NCBI RefSeq assembly: GCF_009707705.1
Contig: NZ_WLYX01000001.1
Location: forward strand, 744,001 to 808,000
Length of the DNA stretch: 64,000 nt
Reading direction: 5' to 3'
From: Paludibacterium denitrificans
Lineage (GTDB): Bacteria; Pseudomonadota; Gammaproteobacteria; Burkholderiales; Chromobacteriaceae
The translations under genes were made by a program, and so were the position numbers. The notes beneath the pieces were generated by a model that worked only from the letters and a program-made list of their open reading frames with translations, was not told where the DNA came from and did no database searches. Positions 6,182 to 40,650 of this stretch are shown piece by piece (the stretch's first letter is position 1; each line of letters opens with the position of its first letter).

Positions 6182-6212
6182 GGTTGGCCGAAACCGCATC
6201 CTTCGGCCAACC
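6182..6212. terminator. Inverted pair of uptake-like motifs between convergent genes
   Basis: GGTTGGCCGAA (6182-6192) and its reverse complement TTCGGCCAACC (6202-6212) form an 11-bp stem with a nine-base loop. The pair sits 12 bases after the AsmA stop and 18 bases from the end of the minus-strand antiporter gene, so it can serve both strands. No long T run follows on the plus strand. Neisseria DUS pairs occupy the same kind of position. Confidence 0.6.
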
Positions 6213-34506: not shown

Positions 34507-36556
34507 ATGTCACAACCGCACGACTTGCTACTGAACCGCGAACTGGGCCTGATCGAATTTAACCGCCGCGTGCTTGCACAGGCGGAAGATCCGCGCCTGC
34601 CACTTCTGGAACGACTCAAGTTTCTGTGCATCGTTTCCTCCAATCTGGACGAGTTCTTTGAGGTGCGCATCGCCCTGGCTCAAGGAAACCGCCCACGTCA
34701 CGCCGGAACGCATTCTGGCTGATGGCAAAACACCGGATCAGGCACTGGCCATGGTATCTGCCGCCGCTCATGCCTTGGTCCGTGAACAATACACAGTAAT
34801 GAGCGATGTGCTGTTCCCGGCCTTGCGCGAGCAGGACATCATTTTCCTGCGCCGGGCCGAATGGAGCACCCAGCAACAGGAATGGATCAGCAATTTCTTC
34901 TTCAAGGACCTGATGCCCATCCTGACGCCGATCGGACTGGACCCTTCCCATCCGTTCCCCAAGGTGCTGAACAAGTCGCTCAACTTTGCCGTCGAGCTGG
35001 AAGGCCGCGATGCCTTTGGCCGCCAGTCAGGCATCGCCATCGTGCAGGCGCCGCGCATCCTGCCGCGCGTGATCAAGCTACCGCCAGAGGTGTGCGACGG
35101 CCATCGTCATACCTTCGTGTTCCTGTCGTCCATCCTGCACTCGCATGTGCATGAATTGTTCCCGGGCATGACGGTCAAGGGCTGCTATCAGTTCCGCGTC
35201 ACCCGTAACAGTGAACTCAACGTCGAAGACGAAGACCTGAAAAACCTGCGCACCGCCTTGCAAGGCGAATTGCGCCAGCGCCAGTTTGGCGATGCCGTTC
35301 GTCTGGAAATTGCCGACACTTGCCCGCCACACATGGAGGAATTCCTGCTCACCCAGTTTGGCCTGCAACCCCGGGACGTGTACCGGGTGGATGGCCCGGT
35401 CAATCTGGTGCGCCTGATGCAATTGCCCGATCTGGTCGACCGGCCCGATTTGAAATTCCCGCCGTTCCGGCCGTCCCTGCCGGGCGTGCTGTCCAAGAAA
35501 ACCCCGCTGTTTGAGGCTATTTCCAAGGGCGATATCCTGCTGCATCACCCCTACCAGAGCTTCCAGCCGGTTATCGACCTGCTGAATCTGGTGGCTACCG
35601 ATCCTCGCGTGGTGGCGGTGAAAATGACGGTCTACCGTACCGGTACCGACTCGGTCCTGATGGACTCGCTCATTGCCGCCGCCCGCGCTTACAAGCAGGT
35701 AACGGTGGTACTGGAGCTGATGGCGCGCTTTGATGAAGAAGCCAATATCAGCTGGGCCAGCTTACTGGAAGACGCTCACGTGGTGTACGGCGTATTTGGC
35801 TACAAGGTGCACGCCAAGATGCTGATGATCGTGCGGCGCGAAGAGCACGGCCTGAAACGCTATGTGCATCTGGGCACCGGCAACTACCATCCGCGCACGG
35901 CCAGAATGTATACCGACTTTGGCCTGCTGACCTGCAATGAGCAGATCGCCAGCGACGTAAACGATATTTTCGTGCAACTGACCGGTCTGGGCCGCGCCAG
36001 CAAACTGCATTTGCTGTACCAAAGCCCGTTTACCCTGCACTCCATGGTGATGACGGCGATCCAGCGCGAGATCGAACACGCCGAAGCAAACCCGCGCAAA
36101 TCATCGCCAAGATGAACGCGCTGCTGGAACCGCAAGTCATCCATGCGCTGTATCGCGCCAGCCAGGGCGGGCGTCAAGATCCAGCTGATTGTGCGTGGCG
36201 TCTGCGCGCTGCGTCCAGGCGTGCCGGGGCTGTCGGACAACATCAGCGTACGCTCCATCGTCGGCCGCTTTCTGGAACATCCGCGCGTGTTCTACTTCTT
36301 CAATGACCGTCAGGAAGACCTGTTCATTGCCAGCGCCGACTGGATGGGCCGCAACTTCTTCCGCCGCATCGAAACCTGCGTACCGATCATCGACCCGCGC
36401 ATCAAGCGCCGGGTGATCAAGGAAGGGCTGCGCCTGTATCTGGAAGACAACGTCAATGCCCGGGAAATGCAGAGCGACGGTAGCTACCGGCGCAAGAGCA
36501 GCCGTGGCAAGGAACACTGCGCACAAAATACCCTGATGGCGGAATACAACGTCTAA
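34507..36556 (+). CDS. ppk1: Polyphosphate kinase 1
   Basis: Makes polyphosphate from ATP. The four-domain protein of about 683 residues begins [21 protein letters not shown], contains [23 protein letters not shown], and the catalytic region [15 protein letters not shown]...[20 protein letters not shown], where one of the conserved histidines is autophosphorylated. ATG 34507 chosen (MSQPHDLL). Breaks: about 34676, 36085 (four bases lost from GCCGGC, restoring Glu-Ala-Gly-Lys-Pro-Ala) and 36168 (extra G). Confidence 0.93.
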
Positions 36557-36580
36557 CGGTTTCGGCCAACCCTGTTCCCG

Positions 36581-36740: not shown

Positions 36741-38410
<1,670 letters not shown>

Positions 38411-38424
38411 GCGCATCCCCCCTA

Positions 38425-38463
38425 TTTCGGCCAACCTTGCTCGTCAGGGTTGGCCGAAATTGT
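38425..38463 (+). terminator. Uptake-motif inverted pair forming the ettA terminator
   Basis: TTTCGGCCAACC (38425-38436) and GGTTGGCCGAAA (38448-38459) give a perfect 12-bp stem with an 11-base loop, then TTGTTTTT. It starts 15 bases after the ettA stop and is the clearest terminator-like use of the repeated motif. Confidence 0.85.
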
Positions 38464-38465
38464 TT

Positions 38466-38883
38466 TTCCGCCACATTTTTGCCACAGCTATTTTCAGCCT
38501 GCTTCCAGCCCTATTTTCAATAAGGTCATTGTAACAAACCTGTCAGCAATGCCTGCGGCGCCATCCCGCCAGCACTATTCCCTCTCTCAAGCATGGTTAA
38601 GGTTTGCTCGGTAAATTTCCCGCACAGCACGCCTATCCTCACAAATAAATTCATATGTCATTTTAAATAATGTCATAAATAACCGGATTTTTTCTTTACA
38701 TATCAAGGCATCTATCTTTATCGAAACGAAAATTGAATTAGAGATCCAGTGAGAAAATTTGCATGCTACATACCATAATGACTAAGACATGAGCACGCAC
38801 CGGATTAGCGCTACGTGCCGCTCGGGATATTAATTTTTGCCAAGGTTCTGCCGCACAACCGGCAACGAGATGGAGTCGGCTTA
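38466..38883. other. AT-rich intergenic region before PAS-GGDEF gene
   Basis: No convincing gene. Bases 38640-38780 are strikingly AT-rich compared with the window and include several TATAAT-like words, so a promoter for the downstream gene is likely here. No regulator site is recognised with confidence. Confidence 0.45.
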
Positions 38884-40650
38884 GTGAAATTTTGGACTGT
38901 ATGGTCAGGCTGGACACGCCATATCCGGCGTCTACCACGCGTCAGACGCCAGCGGAACCAACCCGGGGCTGACTGGCTGGACAGCAGCCCCAACCCGCTG
39001 ATTGTCATCCGGCCAGATGGCGGCATCCATTACATCAACCCCGCCGCGCAACACCTGCTCGGCTATGGTGGGACATCCCTGCTCGGCGCTTCACTACAGC
39101 GCATCTTGCCCAGTACCGGCGAAGGCGATATTCCGCTATTGCAAATGCTGTTTTCCCATCGCAGCCAGCGCCCTGATGGCTGCATGGGGCTGCGCCAGAT
39201 GATTTGCCACGATGGCCGCAGCATCATGATGCTGATTGATGCTGTCGCCCTGCCCGATAATCTGGTCATGCTGGTGCCACGCCAGCCCTCGCAGCTCTAT
39301 CCCGATCTGTCGCAACACTATTTGGCCAACCGTCTGCTCAAATCGACCAACCTCGGCGAGGTCGGCATTGGAACCTGGATTCTGCACATGGATAGCGGTG
39401 AACTGGTGTGGAGCGAGGAAATGCACCAGTTGTTCGGCACCCACCCCGCGTCGTTTCCGGCAACGCTGGAGGCCTATTACGAATGCATCCACCCGGAAGA
39501 CCGGGACGATGTGCGCTTTGCTCTGGAGCAGCACACCCACGGCAACCAACCGTTTGACCTCGAATACCGCGTCGTGCGCGGCGACGGCAGCATCCGCTAC
39601 ATGCTGGAGCGCAACCACATTCACCGTCGCCCCAATGGCAGCATCGATCACCTGTGGGGCACCGTCGCCGACATGACCGTGTTCCGCGAACTACAGGAAC
39701 AACTCAGCCTGTCGCAACTGGTGGTGGAATACTGCTCGGAAGGCGTGGCGATCATGAACGAATCGTTCGACTGGACCTTCGTCAACCCGGCGCTATGTGA
39801 CATGACCGGCCTCAGCCGCGAAATGCTGCAACGCTCGCCCCCCATCTTCCTGCACCCACAAACCCATCAGCCGCTACAGTTGGCCGAAATGCTGCCCATG
39901 CTGATCAGCCATGGCGGCTTCTGGCAGGGAGAACTGGGCATTGCCCGCGCCGATGGCTATCTGCCGGTGCTCGCCTCACTCTCGGTGGCACACAGCAACC
40001 CGGGGCTGGAAGGCAAATACTATATCTGGACCTGCACCGACATCACACCAATCAAGGTCTACGAACGTCAGCTAACCGAGATGGCGTTTTATGATTCGCT
40101 CACCGGACTGGCCAATCGCACCTTGCTCAATGACCGGCTACAACAGGCACTGCATCACGCACGCCGGAAAAGGAAGGACTGGCACTGGCGTTCATCGACC
40201 TCAACGGCTTTAAAAACATCAATGACAGTTTCGGCCATGCCGCTCGGCGATGCACTGCTCAAGGAAGTCGCCTTGCGGCTGAAAGATGCCGTACGTGACT
40301 GCGATACCGTCGGACGCTGGGGCGGCGATGAATTCGCCATTCTGCTTCCCGACTGCCGCGGGCGCGAAGACGCCCTGACACTGGTGCAGCGCCTGCTATC
40401 CAGTTGTCGGCTCACGCGGGCCCATGTGCGCGGCGACATGCAGGTATCGGCCAGCATTGGCGTCGTGCACTACCCGGAACACGGGGCCGACCCATCCGGG
40501 CTAATTCAACAAGCCGACCAGGCCATGTATAACGCCAAACAATACGGTCAGGGCGTAGTCTGGATTTATGGAGAAACCCAACCTGCCTATGTGCAGGAAC
40601 AACGTTGCGCCCGTGCCAACAGGCGCGCGGATGCGCCACCACAGCGCTGA
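38884..40650 (+). CDS. Diguanylate cyclase with three PAS sensor domains
   Basis: Three PAS-type domains (around NPLIVIRPDGGIHYINPAAQHLLGY; GIGTWILHMDSGELVWSEEMHQLFG with HPEDRDDVRFALE, a PAS_3 type; and GVAIMNESFDWTFVNPALCDMTG) precede a GGDEF domain (YDSLTGLANRTLLNDRLQQAL, GRWGGDEFAILLPD). It probably makes cyclic di-GMP in response to an internal cue. GTG 38884 is chosen because GGAG precedes it; GTG 38815 is in frame upstream. Breaks: 40170 (A run one short) and 40246 (GCTCGGC for GCCGGC, restoring His-Ala-Ala-Gly-Asp). An RxxD inhibitory site before GGDEF is not evident. Confidence 0.88.
   Translation: MKFWTVWSGWTRHIRRLPRVRRQRNQPGADWLDSSPNPLIVIRPDGGIHYINPAAQHLLGYGGTSLLGASLQRILPSTGEGDIPLLQMLFSHRSQRPDGCMGLRQMICHDGRSIMMLIDAVALPDNLVMLVPRQPSQLYPDLSQHYLANRLLKSTNLGEVGIGTWILHMDSGELVWSEEMHQLFGTHPASFPATLEAYYECIHPEDRDDVRFALEQHTHGNQPFDLEYRVVRGDGSIRYMLERNHIHRRPNGSIDHLWGTVADMTVFRELQEQLSLSQLVVEYCSEGVAIMNESFDWTFVNPALCDMTGLSREMLQRSPPIFLHPQTHQPLQLAEMLPMLISHGGFWQGELGIARADGYLPVLASLSVAHSNPGLEGKYYIWTCTDITPIKVYERQLTEMAFYDSLTGLANRTLLNDRLQQALHHARRKRKDWHWRSSTSTALKTSMTVSAMPLGDALLKEVALRLKDAVRDCDTVGRWGGDEFAILLPDCRGREDALTLVQRLLSSCRLTRAHVRGDMQVSASIGVVHYPEHGADPSGLIQQADQAMYNAKQYGQGVVWIYGETQPAYVQEQRCARANRRADAPPQR

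Follow-up and report, generated by a model that had tools for sequence, protein, structure and literature searches.

The ettA locus and the hairpin behind its stop codon

The window, i.e., the whole analyzed stretch of 64,000 nucleotides from Paludibacterium denitrificans, contains the gene of the energy-dependent translational throttle protein EttA on the plus strand (ettA, 36771-38410), which ends with the stop codon TAA at 38408-38410. This assignment is based on NCBIfam, where EttA is the best match for 37206-38213, and on a coding model calling 36771-38407; gene context as given here derives from this home-made model and not from curated annotation. Apparent frameshifts are found in ettA near 36904, 37320 and 38213, and homologues of up to 93% identity are free of internal stops. 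Given the 80.6% completeness, these frameshifts look like indel errors of the assembly. Two frames upstream of ettA lies ppk1 (34574-36112, NCBIfam). The frame between both genes is followed, 3 nt past its stop, by a single copy of the repeat discussed below (36560-36571, minus strand), beyond which a distinct stem (36581-36588/36616-36623) and its T-rich tail can be read from the sequence. The next gene downstream of ettA codes for a PAS-GGDEF diguanylate cyclase (38815-40650, plus strand; coding model and NCBIfam).

Directly behind ettA, two copies of a 12-mer face each other. Copy 1 reads TTTCGGCCAACC on the plus strand, which is GGTTGGCCGAAA on the minus strand, and occupies 38425-38436; copy 2, GGTTGGCCGAAA on the plus strand, occupies 38448-38459. 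With 11 nt in between (38437-38447), the 12-bp inverted pair and 11-base loop of the original prediction are exactly as described, and 14 bases separate TAA from the first copy. The predicted fold lengthens the 12 pairs to 16, including one G-U, and shrinks the loop to 5 nt (38440-38444). Hence, the hairpin spans 38424-38460 on the plus strand, 38424-38439 pairing with 38445-38460, with copy 1 in its 5' arm and copy 2 in its 3' arm. Folding of a 70-nt stretch gave -28 kcal/mol (z = -5.7), a stability reached by none of 200 shuffles. Thus, a stable, G+C-containing hairpin stands 14 nt past the ettA stop, and the T-rich tract TTGTTTTT abuts it at the stem foot and just beyond (38460-38467, plus strand), as is typical of intrinsic terminators. 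An Rfam search at this site matched none of the known RNA families. Based on these features, the site is very probably a terminator, and we infer that termination also takes place here in the cell.

The repeat word and its dialects in Chromobacteriaceae

The 12-mer GGTTGGCCGAAA is present 12 times in the window, where 0.02 copies are expected. The genome as a whole contains 491 copies, the reversed control scoring 0. The natural unit of the repeat is, however, not this 12-mer but its 10-mer core GTTGGCCGAA, the top over-represented 10-mer of the window, with 1,851 copies over 3.35 Mb on three contigs versus 24 for the reversed control. These are distributed over both strands (884 + 967, control 10 + 14), an abundance of the kind displayed by the DNA uptake sequences (DUS) of Neisseriaceae. 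Intergenic copies have the 5' context (C)AAG more strongly than genic ones, and motif density is far higher between convergent genes (1.34/kb) than between divergent ones (0.17/kb; P = 0.001). A literature search on the word itself returned only unrelated papers, apparently mentioning it within primers.

Dialects of the word were sought among the 10-mers over-represented in sequence stretches from related genera, followed by whole-genome counts. In all 13 genomes of group g2, which appears to be Vogesella, GTTGGCCGCA reaches 1,871-2,895 copies, while elsewhere in the family it is at or near background; this CA dialect is seen, e.g., at a V. fluminis locus (L040) and at further loci of the group such as L226-L228. 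A literature search for uptake sequences in Vogesella found no paper. A third form, GTTGGCCGAG, is the dialect of group g137, with 39 copies in 60 kb (L223-L225, L220), where it also forms complement-then-motif pairs whose tails are perfect, e.g., AAAAAGCTCGGCCAACCCTTGAAGGTTGGCCGAGCTTTTT. GTTGGCCGAA itself is abundant in genome G000, in g138, g139 and g141, and in one of ten g4 genomes (G117, 1,368 copies). Both the AA and the CA form are near background in the other nine g4 genomes as well as in g3, g136 and g140; g3, g4 and g136 presumably correspond to Chromobacterium, Aquitalea and Crenobacter, respectively. Hence, the endings AA, CA and AG are distributed by genus and absent in some genera, and CAAG ahead of the core is common to all three. 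In the 2013 survey (PMC3630211), the DUS dialects of Neisseriaceae likewise appear as one word that varies among related genera and is missing in some.

One alternative to an uptake sequence accepts the hairpin as ettA terminator but takes the word for the site of another DNA-associated protein (chromosome organization, Chi-like, segregation), with hairpins arising by abundance. Most copies of GTTGGCCGAA indeed lie inside genes, and 133 of the 228 genic copies in the window and L195-L214 are in sense, in the frame TTG-GCC-GAA (Leu-Ala-Glu). Additionally, a search of 61 family genomes for the neisserial uptake receptor family ComP (PF16734) gave nothing over the cut-off and weak matches in 8, though a divergent receptor would escape it. 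Against this stands the orientation of the word relative to the G-rich strand, which at 133:126 in a 464-kb sample displays no replication-strand bias, unlike Chi or KOPS-type signals; a Chi-like or otherwise replication-oriented signal was rejected because of this balance. The genus-wise switch of the last two bases, near-complete in 13/13 g2 genomes, is moreover the behavior of uptake-sequence dialects (PMC3630211). Another binding protein is therefore regarded as an unlikely user of the word, and DNA uptake as the preferred reading. As for a receptor, two of the weak PF16734 loci (L111, L116) were considered and set aside, their pilin-like frames lying in apparent minor-pilin clusters.

Inverted pairs and gene ends

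Close pairs of the word were counted by a genome-wide pattern search with spacers of 3-33 nt, and their gene context was taken from fetched stretches. This gave 27 pairs in complement-then-motif order (-+), which is the order of the ettA site, and 43 in motif-then-complement order (+-), against 7.9 expected from density in either case (P = 8e-8 for -+). In total, 70 inverted pairs thus face an expectation of about 16 (15.8), while direct pairs amount to 8 instead of 15.9 (inverted versus direct, P about 1e-13). Six relatives yielded 290 inverted and 8 direct pairs. Of 46 intergenic pairs in the own genome, 45 adjoin the 3' end of a gene and the one left over is flanked by divergent genes (P = 0.0008, by length), with median distances to the nearest stop of 11.5 nt for -+ and 13 nt for +-; the remaining 24 of the 70 fall within predicted coding segments, where gene calls are uncertain. 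The other inverted pair of the window (6183-6211, locus L024; +- order, spacer 9 nt) is located between two genes that converge on it, at 12 and 18 nt from the respective stops, and has no strong T-tract. Hence, close inverted pairs exceed direct ones and sit at gene ends, as in uptake-sequence systems, and the genome-wide test proposed with the original prediction agrees with it in pair number against motif density and in position after stop codons. Inverted pairs far outnumber direct ones and lie past stops, which makes order and position look selected rather than a by-product of density. That two copies of so abundant a word met at ettA by chance is accordingly highly improbable: density alone would account for about 8 -+ pairs genome-wide, but more than three times as many were counted, direct pairs are nearly absent and the relatives behave alike. 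At ettA itself, the pair begins 14 nt past the stop, its pairing exceeds the core and a T-tract is present.

The two orders differ with regard to T-tracts. Among pairs of the own genome and relatives, +- (head-in) pairs carry them on 25 of 66 sense sides versus 0 of 18 antisense sides (P = 0.001), while for -+ pairs the figures are 7 of 39 and 2 of 25 (P = 0.46). Within the own genome, -+ pairs have 20 sense sides, 2 of them with a T-tract, and the ettA site is one of these two; hence, it is a minority form among -+ pairs. As most -+ pairs have no T-tract, the enrichment of hairpins is not simply a matter of intrinsic termination. The lack of T-tracts in most gene-end pairs of the -+ orientation also speaks for a different role of the hairpin, in which it mainly shields the ettA mRNA from exonucleases at its 3' end or marks this end (as a ProQ/FinO-type site), with termination brought about by Rho. 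The ettA copy, however, has TTGTTTTT right behind its stem, and several relatives possess a canonical GC stem plus T-tract at the end of ettA, which leaves Rho-dependent termination at this site a rather improbable explanation.

In most of the compared relatives, a terminator-like element was found at the end of ettA. In Pseudogulbenkiania (G339) and in genome G341, the gene is followed by TTCGGCCAACCCCGTT...AACGGGGTTTTTTT, where one copy of the word leads into a canonical stem, and in another genome (G332) a forward copy stands just ahead of a canonical terminator. A g137 genome (G328) has CTCGGCCAACCCCGTT...AACGGGGTTTTTT at the same place, i.e., the same element written in its own dialect CTCGGCCAAC. 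Furthermore, at the loci of Neisseria viridiae, N. weixii and Stenoxybacter, ettA ends in facing copies of the respective DUS-type word. Most simply, this can be read as a terminator conserved at the ettA end, part of which several lineages spell in the word characteristic of each. On this view, the lineage of the window would have exchanged the 3' arm for a second copy, a route from the one-copy form of Pseudogulbenkiania to a two-copy terminator. Since orthologous ettA genes carry a terminator in the corresponding position and inverted pairs are enriched past stops, the original assignment of the pair to a terminator-type hairpin of ettA is supported.

Relation to known uptake sequences and implications

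That Neisseriaceae and Pasteurellaceae possess uptake sequences is well established. Terminators formed from inverted uptake sequences are also already known (PMC1852404, Kingsford et al.). The neisserial ones (GCCGTCTGAA...TTCAGACGGC, PMC1852404) resemble the present case in being built from a short word abundant on both strands, in a large excess of inverted over direct pairs, in their position past stops and in the DUS-type pair that ends ettA at the Neisseria and Stenoxybacter loci. At the same time, the word is a different one and a smaller share of its copies is paired in this genome. Order differs as well: in Neisseria, 226 +- pairs face 5 -+ pairs (PMC1852404), whereas the ratio here is 43:27 and the ettA site is of the -+ type. 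The original claim that Neisseria DUS terminate transcription in exactly this arrangement does therefore not hold, and the scarcity of T-tracts among the own -+ pairs contradicts it, too. In their weak orientation bias and modest paired fraction, the pairs resemble the terminators made from the Pasteurellaceae uptake signal sequence (USS, AAGTGCGGT; PMC1852404), with 50 +- versus 25 -+ pairs in Haemophilus influenzae (PMC1852404) and, for spacers of 3-10 nt, about 25:10 in this genome. Word and bacteria are unrelated in that case, and neither AAGTGCGGT nor the USS core variant ACAAGCGGT but GTTGGCCGAA is the top 10-mer of the window.

Comparison with the DUS dialects gives a mixed picture. Read in the same orientation, AGGTTGGCCGAA and simDUS/mucDUS agree in 9 of 12 positions, a match reached by 0.8% of shuffles. 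According to the 2013 survey (PMC3630211), all DUS dialects share A at +10 and CTG at +6 to +8. GTTGGCCGAA, in contrast, has CCG at +6 to +8, and the g137 dialect has G at +10. The same survey reports no obvious DUS for Lutiella nitroferrum 2002 and Pseudogulbenkiania NH8B, nor for Chromobacterium genomes, although its Table S1D of over-represented 10-mers (Frye et al. 2013) may already list this 10-mer. Since the CTG core is missing and ComP gave no match over the cut-off, an uptake function of GTTGGCCGAA is something we infer, if as a probable one. The hairpin had originally been counted as independent support for it, and this is true only in part, because a preference for hairpins is no test of DNA uptake. 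Stronger support is given by the genus dialects, by the lack of replication-strand bias and by the finding that the copy in the ettA terminator matches the dialect.

Taken together, the site is with good probability the intrinsic terminator of ettA, co-opted from two copies of a likely uptake sequence. RNA polymerase would proceed beyond the ettA stop codon, the transcript would fold into the 16-pair hairpin and UUGUUUUU behind it would lead to release ahead of the diguanylate cyclase gene (38815-40650), which the terminator would insulate from ettA transcription. The arms of the hairpin are two inverted copies of the scattered repeat with the core GTTGGCCGAA. This repeat most likely acts as a DNA uptake sequence, allowing self-recognition in natural transformation, and its abundance on both strands would have offered ready-made arms that were co-opted for termination.

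On a wider scale, it seems somewhat likely from the sequences compared that Chromobacteriaceae have an uptake-sequence system of their own, with a postulated receptor, at least three genus dialects (GTTGGCCG-AA, -CA and -AG) and a second use of the word in terminators, among them that of ettA, for which Neisseria and Stenoxybacter employ DUS-type words. As part of this same reading, the system would be related to the neisserial DUS as a sister or more remotely, its CTG core having been lost or never present. If this is true, dialects of about 1,100-2,900 copies in environmental relatives would provide a second, independent set of words and receptors, the receptor could be found by co-variation across word-receptor pairs, and the genus dialects would help to date the origin or replacement of the uptake system. 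In the ettA terminator, several lineages are seen to compose one regulatory hairpin from their respective words.
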